Below are positions 4,291-28,600 of a stretch of 64,000 bases of DNA, piece after piece. The notes below the pieces were generated by a model. It was not told the DNA's origin. It searched no databases and was given only the letters and a program-made list of their open reading frames with translations. This DNA comes from Crambe crambe (taxonomy: Eukaryota; Porifera; Demospongiae; Poecilosclerida; Crambeidae), in the NCBI GenBank assembly GCA_963924555.1, contig OZ004581.1, forward strand, positions 806,001 through 870,000, written 5' to 3'. Both the position numbers and the translations under genes were made by a program. The first letter of the stretch is position 1, and each line of letters opens with the position of its first letter.

Positions 4291-4717
4291 TATTAATTAA
4301 AAAAAAAATCACTTGTAGCGCATGCACTGGTTATGCAAAATGATATTAACTTTTGCTATCCAAACACTAAATATAGGTTCAAATAAATGGTCAGGAACGC
4401 TGGTCGGTAGCGATCATGGAAGGTCCTCTGCAATGCGCAAGAGTACGAATAAGTGGATCCAACTTCAGGGGCTGTAATGTCGTTTTAGTAAATCTGTGAG
4501 TGATGAAAAAGATATACGTGGTTAGTGTATGAACGTAGCTTCATGCCAAGGTATGTCTAACACTACGGAAGACTGTATAATTAGCTAGTAAAGTACCGTT
4601 ATTTAGCAGTCACTTCCGGTCGTGCAATTAAATTGGCCTGCTGGCGAATGGCGTAACGACATTGCAAAGCTTTGCGAGCCAATTTCGCAAAAAGCTTGTC
4701 CGACCCTGGCCAATTCC

Positions 4718-4875
4718 TGTCCTGTTTTGGAGATTCAGAAAAAGGTTAATTGCTAACTGAATTTCAAAGCCCAGCTATTGGTTTGCTTTAGCTTACTAGA
4801 TCTTTCTTGTGCCCACTACCAGGTAAAAATTATCTACAAACACTTAGCCTAGCATTCTCTACCGCGCATCTATAA
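4718..4875 (+). repeat. Dispersed repeat, copy 2 of 2
   Basis: Second copy of the block at 2808-2970. The 185 bp between it and the next gene hold no coding signal. Confidence 0.6.
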
Positions 4876-5060
4876 AACTTTGCGAGCCAATTTCGCGAAA
4901 GTGCAAGGGGTGTGGCCAAGCTCACGTGCAGTTAAACTTGGAACTTGAGATCGAGAGCTGGCTGTGCATATGCCCCTCTAGCTCTACCCGATTGAGACTA
5001 AACACCAGACCTGGACCACGGTCCGGCGATCACCACTACGATCGATCATTATGATCATAG

Positions 5061-5175
5061 ATGGCCGAAGATTCTTTAGATCTGAGGGGTGAGTAATAGA
5101 ATAGATCCAGGGCGAGTCTAAGTGTTTGGTTATGACTTTTTTGATGCTAGTCGCGCGTTCAGGCGATAGCCGCGC

Positions 5176-5206
<31 letters not shown>

Positions 5207-6087
5207 GAGGGGGAGGAAGGAAAAAAAGAAAAGAAGTTGACACATAAGTAATTATCTGGCAGCAGAGTTCAGTGCTGCTGCTGCCAACAAGCTATAAAGA
5301 ATTTTGTTTCGGGAAGGATTTTTTGTGCGGGTACAGTATAGCTAGCTATAGCAATTGTTAGCAGAAAAAGTGGTCATGGCCAAGTAAACACAACCCATTT
5401 TTAGGTTATCCGAATTACATTTGTTTTAGTAGTGTATTGTATTCTTTCTAATTGATGCACCACCCTAATTCCTAATTTAAGAGCCAATAATGCCATTTTA
5501 TGTACCACACCTCCGACCTGGAAGTATTTTTCCTTGGCTCTTCAACACTTTCTTTGCAGGCTCCAGTGCAGGTTCTGGGCTTGAGTAGTCTCTCGGGCTA
5601 CCCCTCAGTCGTATGGCTGGTACCTCCTTTAAATCTTTCCCATACCTAGCTAACCAATGTACAATTTTCTGCAGATTTGCCAATAAAAAGATGTTTCAGC
5701 ATCTTAAAAGGAAAAGTGATAAATTCATTGGAAAGTAGGAGTGATAAGAATGAAGTGCTAGAAAGGTGTCTTGTGTCAAAACTTGATCATAACTTACATT
5801 ACGAGTACAGAACAATGAGTGTGGATAAGCTCTTCAACCATAACCATCTGGGTCATAGACTCTGGTGGAATGACCCATCAATTTTAAAGGAGCTAGCAGA
5901 AGCAGTTGGTTGTGGTGCAGATTATCATGAGTACTTTATTTTACTTCATGCACACTCTACTGATAATAATGTCAAGAAAGTAATAGTGCCAAAAAATGGA
6001 TCTCAGCACTTTGATGTTGAAACTGGCTTCAAGTGGTCAAGAAGAAAAACAGAGTGTAACAATGACAAGAATCCCAGAAGTGAATAA
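5061..6087 (+). CDS. Two-exon gene, 146-aa protein of unknown function
   Basis: Exon 1 (5061-5088) starts with an ATG and encodes MAEDSLDLR, ending at a strong donor (G|GTGAGT). Exon 2 (5675-6087) follows a TTTTCTGCAG acceptor and runs to TAA. The phases fit: one base left by exon 1, two taken up by exon 2, giving 441 nt in all. The product is charged and has no signal peptide or membrane segment. Its first half looks helical (SILKGKVINSLESRSDKNEV), the centre has an aromatic patch (GHRLWWNDP), and the C-terminus is basic. I do not recognise the family. The intron holds a poly-T run (5176-5204). The stop is only 176 bp upstream of the FNIP start codon on the same strand. The call rests on matched splice sites and frame, not homology. 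Confidence 0.5.
5176..5204. repeat. Poly-T tract
   Basis: 29 consecutive T inside the intron of the 146-aa gene. Confidence 0.9.
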
Positions 6088-19680: not shown

Positions 19681-22600
19681 TTATGAGCCAAACTCTTCAG
19701 TGGTAGAATCGATGGGTTTGTATTCATAAGCTCCACGACCGTCAAATTGAAGCACGTACTGTGAATGTAAGGAAAGAGTGAGAAGTTGTAATAGTGTCAA
19801 CATATCTTCTTCAACTGTAGCCATCAGTAAGTCTACCAACTACCCACTAACAGAGCTTAGTAAAAACGATGTACAAAGGTTTGAGAATTTGTATTAGTAT
19901 CTACATATCTTCTTCACCACAGCCATCAGTAAGTCTATCAGCTAGCTACCCACTAATACAGCTTAAGTTAAAATCCAACCATGTTCCTTACCTGATAAAA
20001 ATTAATGGTTGCTAAGCACTTTGTACTATTCACTATAACTATAGCATAGTTCCATAATTTTGTAGTCGGAGGATATTGGAGGCTATCTCTAATACAGGAA
20101 TACAGTGGAACCTCCAATAAAGGACACTCTGAAAGAGGAGAAACCTCTCAACAAAGGACAATCCAAGAGTACGTACCTTTGTATATACACTCTATACAAA
20201 ATAACCTCTACAAGGGACACCCAAGTGCGTCCATTATTTGGAGGTTCCACTGTATTGGATTATTGGGTTGGATGATAATAGCATAGTACAACTTCATTCT
20301 GAGTATTTCTATTGGTACTACTATCTTACCTCATGGTGTTTCCACAGTGACTTCCTGTGGGAGACAGTGAAGAGGGTGATCTCCTTTTCCCTGCAGTGGG
20401 AGTAGATGAAGCCCTCCACGTCCACGCTCACAGCACTTGTGCACTCGTCAAGGATGGCAAACTGTGGCTGATGGTAGAACAACCGGGCCATCTGGGTACA
20501 GTGTGCATCATATGGAGTATGATAGGTACATCATTATAGAGTGTATTATAGAGAATAGTGTGGATTAGAGTAAGGTGCTAATAAGGGTATGAAGGAAGTA
20601 ATGATTGGTATACTGATTATGTCAATAATAGAGTGCCAAGTTCTAATAAAGAGTAACGAGTGCTAGAATTGGTGCACATTAATTAGAATTAGATGATAAA
20701 ATGCTTACAGCCATTCTCTGTTTTTCTCCTCCACTAAGCACGTCCATCCAATCTTGGACAGCAGTCCAGCCTCCCTCACGCTCATGTAGGTATGACAGCT
20801 GGACCTAAAGTCACATGATGGTCACATGATAGTACGATATTGTATACAGAGTGGGAATTGGATTTACCTTATCCAAGAAGTCGGCCAGATCATCATCTGA
20901 AATGCCCTTCTGTGTCTGATCCGTGACGGTGTCTGGGTAGATCACCTGATCTCTCAGAGTGCCGAGGGTCATGTAGGGACGCTGGGGCACATAGAAGAGC
21001 TTACTCCTGTGAGGCTTCACCAGACGCCCCCCAAATAGCGGCCAGAGCTGTAAACAGTCACACACAAAACAAGATAAAAGAGATTCCTTCCAAGTGGTGT
21101 TAAAAAAAAGATAATGTATATTACCCATCCTTCTTCTCCCCTTCTCTCTCCCATTCCTCTTCCCCTCACCCCTTTCCCTCCCTATCACTCTCTCTCTCCC
21201 TTCCCCCTCCCTCTCTCTAGCTCTAATCCTCCCCCTCCCTCCCTCTCTCTTCTATTTTCCCTACCTCCCCAAGAATCCTGAAGAGTGAGCTCTTTCCACA
21301 GCCATTTGGTCCGCACACCAAAACATTCATCCCAGATTTCACCTCAAAGTTCATGTTCTTTACCAAAACATCTCCATTAGGTGTCACCAAGGGAACAGAC
21401 TCAAACCTGTGTAGATAAAGTTCAGTAATCTTTGAGTATACTGACTTTTATATTAAGAGTATGTAATCGGATCAACATCCTTTACCAACTTAATCACTGT
21501 CAGGATTTTATTTTAACTAGTTAGTAATCTATGTGTATGCATTCATGGTGATGACCCCCTTTACCAAGTTAGTAATTGGATCAGTAATCTTGTTTAGTAT
21601 TCAGTATTCTAACCTGATTACACGATCCTGTTCTATGACTTCACCTCCACCTGGCACAAGTGGCACACAAGGTTGGTTGTCTACAGGAAAAATCAGTATA
21701 ATTCCATATGTACACTTGAGATTTGGACATAATTATGAGGTGGTTTTCATAGCAGTGTTTTTCTTCATGAAAAAAATTTCATGGTTAATTTCATAAGTCT
21801 GTTAATGATTCATGTCTTTTTTGTGACTTAAAAAGTACCTAATGATTATGGGAGGTGGGTGGGAAGGATGGAATGGAGCCCGAGGGTGGGGACATCCAGT
21901 AGGAGTGAGGAATAAGTCTCTCCGACCCTCCCCTCTCTCTATTACAGCAGGGTATGTGTTTCTTTCTTGAGCATCTTACATACCTTCTGTCTGAGTGTCT
22001 TTACTGGTCTGTGTGACCATGGTTCTCTCATACACGCCTTTCTCAATGTCCTTCAGTACCACCAATAACTCATACACACGAGAAGTGAACCTGCACAGAC
22101 ATACCGGCATCCATAAAATTCCTTATGCAGGATAAAGGATGGACAACCTCTACAAAGGACAAAAGGCTAGGTCAAGTGAGGTTCTACTGTATAGTTGCAG
22201 CACATAATTCAGACTCCAGAATTGTGAGCACAGGGATTTCTCCATAGTCAAGATATCAGTCATTTAAAAAATATATATATAATCATATTTCTAACTGAAC
22301 ATAACACAGACCTATGTACATGAATGTTATAATAATTATTGATTAAGGACAAGTAGCACGAGGGATTACAGTCTGGATCGGTGCCAGCACGCATTCTGTG
22401 TTAAAGTCTCCACACTGCCAACATCCTTGGGTCCTTCTTCTCAAACAAATGAAGCAGAATTCTGTCTTGCATTGCTTGCACTGTATGTGCTTGCAACCTT
22501 CAGCATGTTCAATCAAAGAGCCACAGTGAGGGCAAGCTCGTTTTTTATAAATTTCAATCTTAATGAAGTCCACTTTCACTTTTCCACAGTCACGTAAGAT

Positions 22601-25600
22601 AGCAAGATTTTCACCATCGCTACATTCAAAGTTGCCACAGGTTGAAGACGAAAGAGGATTCTTCCAATCTCTGAGGCAATACCAGCAAAAATAATTATCA
22701 GAGTTAGTCTTTTTTGAGCATATTAAGCATTTAACAGAATTTATCTTGGGATCTTCACGAGTGATGTAGCTATCGCATTTTGGACACTGGTTAATATCAC
22801 TACTGTTAAAACATACATTGTTTTCAATGCCCATCTCTAGCTGTTGCATTTCAGTGGCAGTGGCTCCACCATATCGCTTGATGACAGACGCTGACCAAAC
22901 AGCCTCGCAGAGTGGACACTTAATTTCAGTCTTTCTGTCCTTTATTTCGTTCCAACAATATTCCATCAGTCCTGCAGGTGATATAGAGTGGCCACATGGC
23001 ATTTCCAGTACAATGACTCTATCATCTTTGTAATTCATATGAGTAATCAAACATTTTCCCTCGCTTCTCGGAAGAGAACTTTCGATACTCTGATTATTAA
23101 GATCAAGATCACCAAAGAACCATGATTTGAAGTATGACACTACCTTCTCTACCATGCTTCCTCCTGGAAGTCGCATAACAAGCATTATATTAGATCCATT
23201 TTGTAGTGTTTCATAATCAGACAGTTTTTTATCATCTTGCATATAACGAGAGACATAAATGAGCTGTTGATGGGAAGCACTTATCCCGGTCTTCTTTTCT
23301 ACCAACTGTTTCAGCACCTTCACTGTAGTATTCTGGAAATAAACACTCAATATAATCATGTGGCTAGGGTGGAATGGTGTGGATAACTTTTTGTCTTACT
23401 TACCTCTGGATGGGGGCTATCGATGTTGATCGTATGAGTCTTTCCTTCCAACCCCTTGATGAATAATTGCCACAACATTGCTACCAGAATGCTATGCCCT
23501 AGCAGGCTGAGATGGCAGTATGCTCATGTAAGCTGATGTGGTAGCTTATATACTTTTTTTCTATTTCGGTACTTTCCCTGGTACTTTCCCTCTGTTTCAG
23601 AGTGCAAGATGTGATGGCTTTGAGGGCAGATGTGATTGATTGAAGGTCAAGGTTCAAGGAACAGCATTTTATATTGGTAAAACAATATGAGGATACTTCA
23701 TCATCCCTTTGCCATAATGATGCACGCATTAGCTGGTCCCCCATATTCTGAACATAAAGAAGGGCAAATCCAAGTCTTGGTGTGTTCCATTCTCATTAAA
23801 AATTTGCTTGGGGGGGGGGGGGGGGGGGGGGGTGCAAAAATTTGAGGAGAGGCAATTACAATGTAATAGTGGAATTCTACACAGCTCATACACACGAGAA
23901 GTGAACCGGCACAGATATATATACCACATCCATAAAAAGTCCTTAAACAGTAGAATCTCTGATAAAGGACACTTTAAAAGAGGACATATCAACCTCTCTA
24001 CAAAGGACAACAGGCTAGGTCACAAGTGAGGAATTTCAGCCATTTTTAATTTTACTTTTAGAGCACAGGGATTTCCTCATGAGTCAGGGGAAGTCAAGAT
24101 ATCCGCCATTTTGAATTTTTAAAACTCAATAACAACAAAAAATACCTGTTTCAACACAAGAATGCTATAATAATTATTGAGTTGGAGTAGCACGAGGGAT
24201 TACAGTCTGGATTGATGCCAACACACATTCTGTGTTAAAGTCTCCACACTGCCAACTTCCTTGGGTCCTTCTTCTCAAACAAATGAAGCAGAATTCTGTC
24301 TTGCATTGCTCGCAGTGTATGTGCTTGCAACCTTCAGCATGTTCAATCAAAGAGCCACAGTGAGGGCAAGCTCGTTTTTTTATAAATTTCAATCTTAACG
24401 AAGTCCACTTTCACCTTTCCAGAGTCACGTAAGTTAGCAAGACGTTCAGCATCTCTACAATCAAAGTTGCCACAAGTTGAAGACGAAAGAGGATTCTTCC
24501 AATCTCTGAGGCAATACCAGCAAAAATAATTATCAGAGTTAGTCTTTTTTGAGCATATTAAGCATTTAACAGAATTTATTTTGGGATCTTTACGAGTGAT
24601 GTAGCTCTCGCATTTTGGACACTGGTTAATATCACTACTGTTAAAGCATACATTCTTTTCAATGCCCATCTCTAGCTGTTGCATTTCAGTGGCAGTGGCT
24701 CCACCATATTGCCTGATAACAGACACTGACCAGACAGCCTCACAGAGTGGACACTTGATTTCAGTCTTTCTGTCCTTTATTTCGTTCCAACAATATTCCA
24801 TCAATCCCTCAGGTGACATAGCATGGCCACATGGCATCTCCAGTACAATGACTCCATCATCTTCGTAATTCATATGAGTAATCAAACATTTTCCATCGCT
24901 TCTCGGAAGAGAACTATCGATACTCCGATTATTAAGACCACGATTATCAAAGAGAAATGATCTGAATACAGATACAATTTTCTCTACCATGCTTCCTCCT
25001 GGAAGTCGCATAACAAGCATTATATTAGATCCATTTTGTAGTGCTTCATAATCAGACAGTTTTTTATCATCTTGCATATAACGAGAGACATAAATGAGCT
25101 GTTGATGGGAAGTATTTATCCCAGTCTTCTCCTCCACTAACTGCTTCAGTGTCTTCACTGTAGTTTTCTGGAAATAACAAGATAGATTTCTATCTTGGTA
25201 GACTTTCATGATGATTATTTCTTACCTCTGGATGGGGGCTATCAATGTTGATCGTATGGGTCTTCCCTTCCAACCCCTTGATGAACAATTGCCACAACAT
25301 TGCCACCAGCACTCAATAGCAAGCAACCACGTACTTTATAGAAAAGACACCAAAAAGCGAGCAAACACAGAAAAGATGCTGGTGGTATAGTCGCAACACA
25401 CCCTAGTTATATATCGCCTAGTTAACAGAATGACGCAATCTGGTACAATCCCAGGTGCTTTTTCCCTAATGGCCAATGACCCCTATCGATAACATTGTAT
25501 GTCTGTTACATGTACACACATGATCCAGCAGGGTACAAATAGCTGGCATTCTTAGGCTACTTGATGAAGAAGACTCGTGCACATCTGAATACAATTGTGA

Positions 25601-28600
25601 ATGTTTCTCACAATGGAACACATGTCTATCGCATTAACCTCTTGACAAGCTCTGCTGAACTACTGGAGGGTTTAGGAAATATATCAAAGTCCTATGTACT
25701 GATACAAGTATTGTGGGGTGCTCAGTTTATCATAAGTTGTCACAAAAAGAAACTGATGTAAGAGAGTAGACTCTTCATTGTTAATCACCTTCCACTACAA
25801 AACTTAATTATATATAAAAAAGACATTGTACAATAGATACACTGACCCTGATCTAATGGTATGCATGAGTCACTTATAGTATTGAGTGTTCATACGTTAT
25901 AATGTGGAATGATAGTTTGGATTGGAGCCTCTATGCATTGATCATTGAATGAACCACAGGACCAGCTTCCATAGGAAATCTTTCTTCTCAAACAAATGAA
26001 GCAAAACTCTGTCTTGCAAGCTGTGCATTGCATGTTCTTGCATCCATCAGACAACTCTATCATGGTGCCACAGTGAACACACGCCCGGTATTTAAAAATC
26101 GTGCAATCTTTTATGTAAGCCACTTTCACCCTGCCACAGTCGCACAGCAGAGCCAAGATTCTAGCATCATTACATGAAGAATTTCCACAGCTGGTAGATG
26201 AAACAGAAGTCTTCCATACTTTCAGGCAGTACCAGCAGAAATGATATTTAGGACGTCCATGCATTTTGCAACCGACACACTCCACACAACTATCATTTGG
26301 GTTTTGGCGAGTGCAGTAGGTTTGACATTTGAGACACTGCTTGATATTGTCATTCTTGTCGCAAAAATTTCTAGACAAACCTACTTCTAGTAAACCCAAT
26401 TCTTTGGTACTAATGCCACCATATCGCTTGACAACAGCCAACGACCACTCCACCTCATAAAGAGGACACTTGATTTCGCTCTTCCTTTCTCTGGTCCAAC
26501 AGTAGTCCATCAATCCACCGGATGACATTGAATGACCACATGGCATTGCCCATACCATAACTCCATCCTGTTCAAAATCGCAACCAGTGCATGATCATAC
26601 AATAGTCGCTACTTTTGGAAGAGATTTGTCCACAGTCCGTTTGGGCCCAAAATGAACTTTCAATGACTCCACATCAGATGTTAGGTTCTCAAGCAGGCTT
26701 CCCCCCTTCAGCCTTGCAACGAGAAAAATATTGGACATATGTCCAAGTGGAGAATATTTAGCATAAATTTTTCCTCGAAATCCATTGATGAACAGTTGCC
26801 AAGCCATTGGTACTAAGAGAAGAGACTTAGTATATGCTCTTGCAAGCTGATGTGTCAAAAAAGAGAGAATTAATGGTCTTGCAAGCTGATGTGTCCACAA
26901 AGAGAGAAAAGTAAGTAGTTTATAAACCAGTGTCTAGGTGCTTTTTATTGTTATGAATTGACATAGCAACCACAATTATGCATGTTTCTGTTGGTCATCA
27001 AAGCTATTCCTGACATCAGGTGTGCGTTATGAGAACACTGGAGCCCATGGACCAGCTATGCAAAGAGAGGCTGGCATGATCAGCATTTGTGTCTAGTCTT
27101 CATGTCTATGTGGTTATAACTACTGCTCATAATTATGTAGAACAGAATTGGGCTACTGCACATGGACAGTCCTGGTTTTGCTTTAAGTTTTTGAACATGA
27201 ATTAATCCGCCAATAGTCCTTTTAATTCTGAGAATGATGACACACACTGAGACCATCAATATTATTCCTAGTGGGCTATGGTATACTGTTTTCTTACCCT
27301 GCCAGCCTTGTCATCTCCCTCCCAGCTAGCACCAGTCGTCCGATAGCTTCAGCCATCCTCACCAACATCCGTCCACTTCTATAGTAATCCTGTATATCCC
27401 AGTAATTTCTAGTAATTTAACAGGAAACTACAGAGGATTGCAGGTTGGTTGAGGGAGAAGATTTTGCTTATTGACATAATATACCACTAGCCATTGTTCA
27501 GAACAATAGCTAGTGGCCTCTTACGTAAACAGCCAAAGTCTTCTCCTCAACCAATCTGCAATCCTCTGTATCAGTAATTTCATAGTATACTGGAAAGGGG
27601 GGAGTAAAGTACCACTTTCTGTTCTAGTATTCTGATAGTAATTGCCAGTATTCTTATCAGTATTCTCATAGTAATTTAGTATACTCACCAGTAGGATCTC
27701 ATTGTGTGTGCTATGGAGATGCCTAGGATCAGAGAGGTCCAAGAAGGGCTTACTCACAGCTAAGTACCCAACAACTGTTGCCAAATCTACACAAAATACA
27801 TAGACACATAGTGATTAGTACAGTGTGCTGTTAGGACATGATGGAGTGGCTTTTATAGAGAGATGGTCTCTTTAGGGAGGTTGAGGTGCTATTGGGACAT
27901 GGTGGAGTGGCCTTCATAGAGAGGTGGTCTCTTTAGGGAGGTTGAAATAGCTGGAATAGGTGCTGTTGGGACATGGTGGAGTGGTCTTAATAGAGAGGTG
28001 GTCTCTTTAGGGAGGTTGAAATAGCTGGAATAGGTGCTGTTGGGACATGGTGGAGTGGTCTTAATAGAGAGGTAGTCTCTTTAGGGAGGTTGAAATAGCT
28101 GGAATAGGTGCTGTTGGGACATGGTGGAATGGCCTTTATAGAGAGATGGTCTCTTTAGGGAGGTTGAAATATCTGGAATAGGTGCTGTTGGGACATGGTG
28201 GAGTGGCTTTAATAGAGAGGTGGTCTCTTTAGGGAGGTTGAAATAAGTGCTGACATGGTGGAGTGGTCTTGATGTAGGAAGGTAGGGAGGTGGCCTCACG
28301 TACACTTTGCTATGACAGTGTCGATGAATCCCATGGAGAATCTGAATAGGATGAAGTCCCTCAAGTGATCTACCAGCTCCATGAAGGTGGATTGCACCGT
28401 TTGACACTCCCGAGAGCTCCCTTGGTAGAAGGAGATCTCCTCACTACATAGGAAGTATAGAAAAGTATGAGAATTTAAGTGAGATCACACAAACTAGATT
28501 ACTAAGTGTCTGAATGAGATTACTAGAAATTTGTGAATGAGATTACTGCATTAATAAGATTACAAGCATGCAGGACACAGACTCATTGTAAGAATACTAG

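Follow-up and report, generated by a model that had tools for sequence, protein, structure and literature searches.

A Ubl-RBR-like gene array within an intron of ABCD3 in the sponge Crambe crambe, with a copied edge of a host exon

The window, a stretch of 64,000 nucleotides from the Crambe crambe genome (contig OZ004581.1), contains three Ubl-RBR-like copies (A, B, and C) that lie within one intron of ABCD3, the PMP70 gene (Table 1). When the two host exons flanking this intron were joined in frame, the best match was human ABCD3 (E 6.6e-24), followed by ABCD1 (7e-05), and the next nucleotide-binding exon (21223-21420) also matched human ABCD3. The entire array is located within this single host intron, as is the case for a nested gene, and A, B, C, and ABCD3 are all encoded on the minus strand. 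This agrees with an earlier note on this DNA, which had described a Ubl-RBR array nested in a PMP70 intron on the host's strand; its start for the array, 22070, has to be moved, since that position falls in the host exon and the intron begins at 22091. Near the array, there is a 74-base tandem repeat (27810-28253).

Table 1. Positions of the host exons, the host intron, the three copies, and the associated elements in the window
Feature	Position	Strand	Remarks
ABCD3 exon 3' of intron	21984..22090	-	acceptor AG at 22091-22092; low edge placed by eye at a GTATG donor
ABCD3 intron containing the array	22091..27297	-	phase 2; 5,207 bases; GT donor, AG acceptor
Copy A exon 2	22343..23332	-	remaining Ubl, atypical RING1, IBR, RING2 with putative catalytic Cys; open to the stop
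Copy A exon 1	23404..23478	-	residues 1-25, in which the Ubl begins
Element 5' of A	23519..23540	-	22 bases, 20/22 identical to a stretch 5' of C
Copied downstream host exon edge	23885..23919	-	22 exon bases (23885-23906) plus intron end; 33/35 bases shared with 22069-22103 (94%)
Copy B exon 2	24174..25167	-	frame lost at the A-run 24375-24381 (T on the plus strand); RING2 in another frame, 24177-24410
Copy B exon 1	25226..25300	-	two-exon structure as in A
Copy C RBR piece	25890..26594	-	open; RING1 CPLY, RING2 C-x-Asn
Copy C 5' piece	26595..26807	-	start of the Ubl plus linker; Ubl core and intron absent; ends at an in-frame TGA
ABCD3 exon 5' of intron	27298..27389	-	donor GTAAG; high edge placed by eye at an ACAG acceptor

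Copy A consists of two exons separated by a GT-AG intron and is open throughout (22343-23478), encoding 354 amino acids. The Pfam query, which comprised exon 2 and 11 intron codons without exon 1, matched ubiquitin (1.7e-12), IBR_1 (1.9e-10), and IBR (1e-07), the latter two above their cut-offs with two stretches each and placing an IBR between RING1 and RING2, while zf-RING_2 reached only 0.079. The RING2 of A matches the RING2 of ARIH1 (7.6e-05), ARIH2 (8.9e-04), and parkin (0.0077), and the RING2 cysteine is retained as C-x-His, so that the description of A as intact with a RING2 Cys is borne out by the open frame and by these alignments. In copy B (24174-25300), a run of seven A residues replaces the six found in A and shifts the frame just 5' of RING2; the RING2 part continues in the other frame, where it still matches Pfam IBR_1 (1.5e-09). 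In copy C (about 25890-26807), most of the Ubl is gone, an in-frame TGA lies between the linker and RING1, and a RING1 cysteine has been replaced (CPLY for CPLC). The three copies are thus in differing states of decay, as had been claimed: A is open, B carries a one-base shift, and C has the TGA and the lost RING1 Cys. Putative TATA-like words occur 5' of A (-195 and -74), B (-113 and -40), C (-117), and a relative on contig C16 (-59). Among 11 poly(A)-like words sought in the 260 bases after the A stop, only AATAAT was found, AATAAA and ATTAAA being absent. The word GGGAAANTACC, which by eye occurs twice 5' of A and also 5' of the C16 relative, was dropped, as these two upstream regions are no more alike than expected by chance.

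RING1 usually has a spacing that includes CGH-x2-Cys. In all six of the aligned relatives it is non-canonical: a Ser takes the place of the Cys in CGH-x2-Cys, the initial C-x2-C is found in C alone, and the invariant positions are C138-G-H140, S143, and C164-P165. The RING2 motif is C-x-His in A, in the tail of B, and in the C9 relative, C-x-Gln in C16, C-x-Asn in C, and C-x-Arg in C17. PMC3305615 defines an RBR by RING1, IBR, and a RING2 with an active-site Cys and describes the thioester mechanism; given the RING2 match and the C-x-His of A, a thioester mechanism as in the RBR ligases is the likely mode of action. Copy A is therefore best called RBR-like, probably with the mechanism of an RBR ligase but without one of the defining features, a canonical RING1.

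The genome, assembled into 119 contigs with a total of 143.14 Mb, was searched with A and with two relatives, C9 and C17. With A as the query, 28 matches had an E value no higher than 0.001; nine of them lie in six loci (A, B, C, C16, C9, and C17), 18 comprise the Ubl only, and one comprises RING2 only; the C9 and C17 searches (27 and 84 matches) added no further Ubl-RBR locus. As only the best candidates are scored in such searches, the family has at least six loci. The C16, C9, and C17 relatives are located elsewhere in the genome, each as a single locus, and the proposal that the intron is the site of this ligase family is not supported. Likewise, the genome-wide search with copy A that had been suggested for other arrays, extended to three whole-genome searches, found no second array among the best-scored candidates. 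The protein of the C16 relative carries two Ubls and matches Pfam IBR_1 and IBR above cut-off, and the C17 relative has a second Ubl frame directly upstream. In a six-member tree (223 columns), the grouping of A with B is firm, and for the placement of C relative to C16 none of the three tested topologies was rejected.

NCBIfam returned only rad23, below its cut-off, for two of four proteins, and eight pattern matches to viral relatives yielded none that could be confirmed. Two matches were set aside by eye: one on C18, a protein that combines a Ubl with a RING at its C-terminus and has no RBR of the A type, and the RING2 match on C5, which is Ariadne-like. For the suggested role in innate immunity or element control, nothing was found beyond the C9 relative beside a weak NACHT match. 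There (L030, 2075-2512 on the plus strand and 4571-5506 on the minus strand), the C9 relative adjoins a NACHT-like stretch with a Pfam value of 2.7e-4, below the cut-off. The C16 relative is flanked by two very similar stretches (L029, 76-2350 and 6028-9816) whose translations resemble, by eye, an RTEL1-type helicase. Genes that, as judged by eye, join a Ubl to a C-terminal RING form a cluster (L053, 2673-3812, 4105-5042, and 5506-5880) of at least two copies, one seemingly fragmented. Long frames of up to 2,093 amino acids with many divergent ubiquitin-like repeats lie at C17:1296658-1298823, 1310664-1314092, and 1325333-1329232 and at C16:2406778-2409914, and C16 also has regular repeats spaced by 228 bases, seemingly ordinary polyubiquitin and distinct from the divergent-repeat frames. 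Finally, several IBR matches in frames of 931 to 1,578 amino acids at C16:2018536-2133155 perhaps mark another RBR cluster. A similar uncharacterised family may occur in fish. Among the titles listed in the literature on sponge RBR proteins and Ubl-RBR expansion, most subscription papers being outside reach, none describes a Ubl-RBR-like group with a reduced RING1.

The likeness between A and B begins 9 bases before the ATG (23487 in A and 25309 in B) and extends through the 3' flank to the edge of the host exon. Identity is 79/84 over exon 1 and the 9 bases, 40/46 over the RBR intron (25 more gapped), 913/986 over exon 2 (4 gapped), 167/193 over the 3' flank (40 gapped), and 37/40 over the host edge (1 gapped). 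A genome DNA search with 21980-22160 found two places, the host edge and its copy. Because the RBR intron occupies the identical position in A, B, and the C16 relative, the genes were copied as DNA and not by retroposition, and because the A/B likeness reaches the host exon edge, the duplication occurred within the host gene and took with it 22 exon bases and the acceptor. The acceptor in the copied edge is CG, while the true host acceptor is AG. We take this to mean that a site doing harm, or serving no use, was lost, although one change among few cannot demonstrate selection. A dispersed repeat with many genome copies lies at 23940-24030 in the window; it is dense on contig C3, with at least 54 matches when the best 40 of 292 candidates were scored.

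Upstream of the genes the pattern is different. The intron, 3' flank, and host edge are copied as in a tandem duplication, but the upstream flanks of A and B are alike only at chance level (59/500 shuffles and 93/500 window stretches score as high). The A and C16-relative upstream regions are also at chance level (211/500 shuffles and 195/500 window stretches), and the same test gave no likeness above chance for B and C, B and C16, or C and C16. Above chance is only the 22-base element shared by A and C (0/500 shuffles and 4/500 window stretches). Since a simple tandem duplication predicts that A and B are alike upstream, a later replacement or conversion must be added. It could be argued that the three copies are older and separate, and that A and B were made alike by gene conversion, which would have covered the coding part and the 3' flank. 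This would account for the end of the likeness 9 bases 5' of the ATG and for an A upstream region that shares the 22-base element with C and nothing above chance with B. However, the like stretch includes the copied host edge, so a duplication of that edge is needed at some time in any case, and the same pattern would result if sequence had been inserted or deleted upstream of either B or A; we regard conversion of separate copies as unlikely. A duplication within the intron remains our preferred reading, and with it the idea of a birth-and-death family holds in a weaker form, limited to this intron, where a duplication gave A and B, and B and C have decayed.

The substitutions separating the copies bear on which of them still works. 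Over the 286 codons before the shift, A and B differ with a dS of 0.162 and a dN of 0.063 (ratio 0.39), and over the 66 codons of the RING2 part with a dS of 0.087 and a dN of 0.050 (ratio 0.58); dS values of 2.7 between A and C16 and 1.34 between A and C are too high for dating. When the changes were assigned to branches with the C16 relative as outgroup (13 changes being unassignable), the A branch had 17 synonymous and 22 replacement changes, departing from neutrality (P 0.0013), and the B branch had 8 synonymous and 15 replacement changes, which is not significant (P 0.093). By these counts, copy A looks to be under constraint.

As the damage in B is a single homopolymer base, it is recent, or else it may be a sequence error. 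This raises the question of whether B is itself a working gene, the 7-A frame shift being an error of sequence or assembly or confined to a single allele. The one homopolymer base is the only coding break seen in B, and the changes on its branch lean in the direction seen for A (P 0.057 up to the shift and 0.093 overall). Against this, errors in a run of seven should be rare in long-read assemblies at high depth, and we consider a working B doubtful. The opposite view, that the whole array is dead and A too is a recent pseudogene lying silent in the intron, draws on the broken state of B and C and on the absence of AATAAA and ATTAAA from the 260 bases after the A stop, but it has to face a frame that is open over 354 codons and the synonymous excess on the A branch, and it appears improbable to us. 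It is scarcely credible that the RBR exons belong to ABCD3, whether as alternative exons or as 3' ends: the strand is shared and the weak poly(A) context after A would permit read-through to the next host exon, but A and B each begin with a start codon and an exon 1 of their own, and a host exon spliced to RBR exon 2 would lose the frame because the host intron is in phase 2 and the RBR intron in phase 0.

Taken together, the data make it likely that a Ubl-RBR-like gene became nested as DNA in the ABCD3 intron and was duplicated there, with A working and B and C broken. We hypothesize that the gene entered the intron on the host's strand and that the duplication giving A and B, which also copied the adjoining host exon edge, probably came about by unequal exchange or replication slip. 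As the stray acceptor lacks its AG, the host would be able to join its true donor to its true acceptor. Copy A would most likely be a functional gene that has a start of its own, and its product would receive ubiquitin from an E2 on the RING2 Cys before transferring it to a target, the Ubl serving a regulatory or docking role; B would be a recent broken copy and C an older one. Transcription of the array in its own right, enzymatic activity, and tolerance by splicing are what we infer from the sequence, and the earlier argument that the copies must be spliced out with the intron or end host transcripts is logically right. A bolder proposal can be framed, in which a little-described Ubl-RBR-like lineage with a reduced RING1 is maintained in an intron array on the host's strand, the activity of the array sets the level of full-length ABCD3, and the loss of the stray acceptor was selected. 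If this were true, transcription from A would cut short or disturb host transcripts and couple peroxisomal import to a ubiquitin signal, and the loss of the stray acceptor would reflect selection for a clean host splice; we hold it to be very improbable.

The nested, duplicated gene that we favor is made of known kinds of event and protein, namely gene nesting, local tandem duplication, and an RBR-like ligase, and the unusual part is the copied host exon edge. It offers a readable case of a nested gene multiplying in a housekeeping intron, in which a host splice acceptor was copied and then lost, and it draws attention to RBR-like proteins in which RING1 is reduced, leaving the general picture unchanged.

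With respect to known RBR ligases, A has in common with parkin and HOIL-1/RBCK1 the N-terminal Ubl, the IBR, and the RING2 Cys at the catalytic place, but its RING1, unlike theirs, is non-canonical. Parkin has a RING0 between the Ubl and RING1, whereas A has 35 residues from the end of the Ubl to the first RING1 Cys, too few for such a domain. HOIL-1/RBCK1 has an NZF zinc finger between the Ubl and the RBR, and A has no NZF match at E up to 1. The Ariadne type is not known to carry a Ubl. The ARI1-type RBR expansion in Caenorhabditis (PMC6288150) is a recent, lineage-specific gain; RBR genes were gained in both cases, but the sponge searches found only six loci among the best-scored candidates, and these have a Ubl.

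Nested genes are numerous in some sponge annotations and scarce or absent in others. According to PMC10282587, Aphrocallistes vastus, Amphimedon queenslandica, and Sycon ciliatum have 2,432, 3,358, and 5,032 nested genes, respectively, against 83 in Oopsacas and 0 in Ephydatia; its authors see annotation settings as the probable reason for low counts in some genomes and give 5-10% of genes as the typical nested share. PMC8467205 gives opposite-strand orientation for 220/296 simple nested pairs in human and 193/248 in mouse, so that the same-strand arrangement found here belongs to a minority in mammals (about 22-26%) and is not rare. At the imprinted mammalian locus H13/Mcts2, PMC13309782 reports experimental evidence that nested transcription ends host transcripts early; in both cases a gene lies within a host gene, the sponge array being described from its sequence. 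As in other sponges and animals, the gene resides in a single intron, but here it is present as three tandem copies together with a copied edge of its host.
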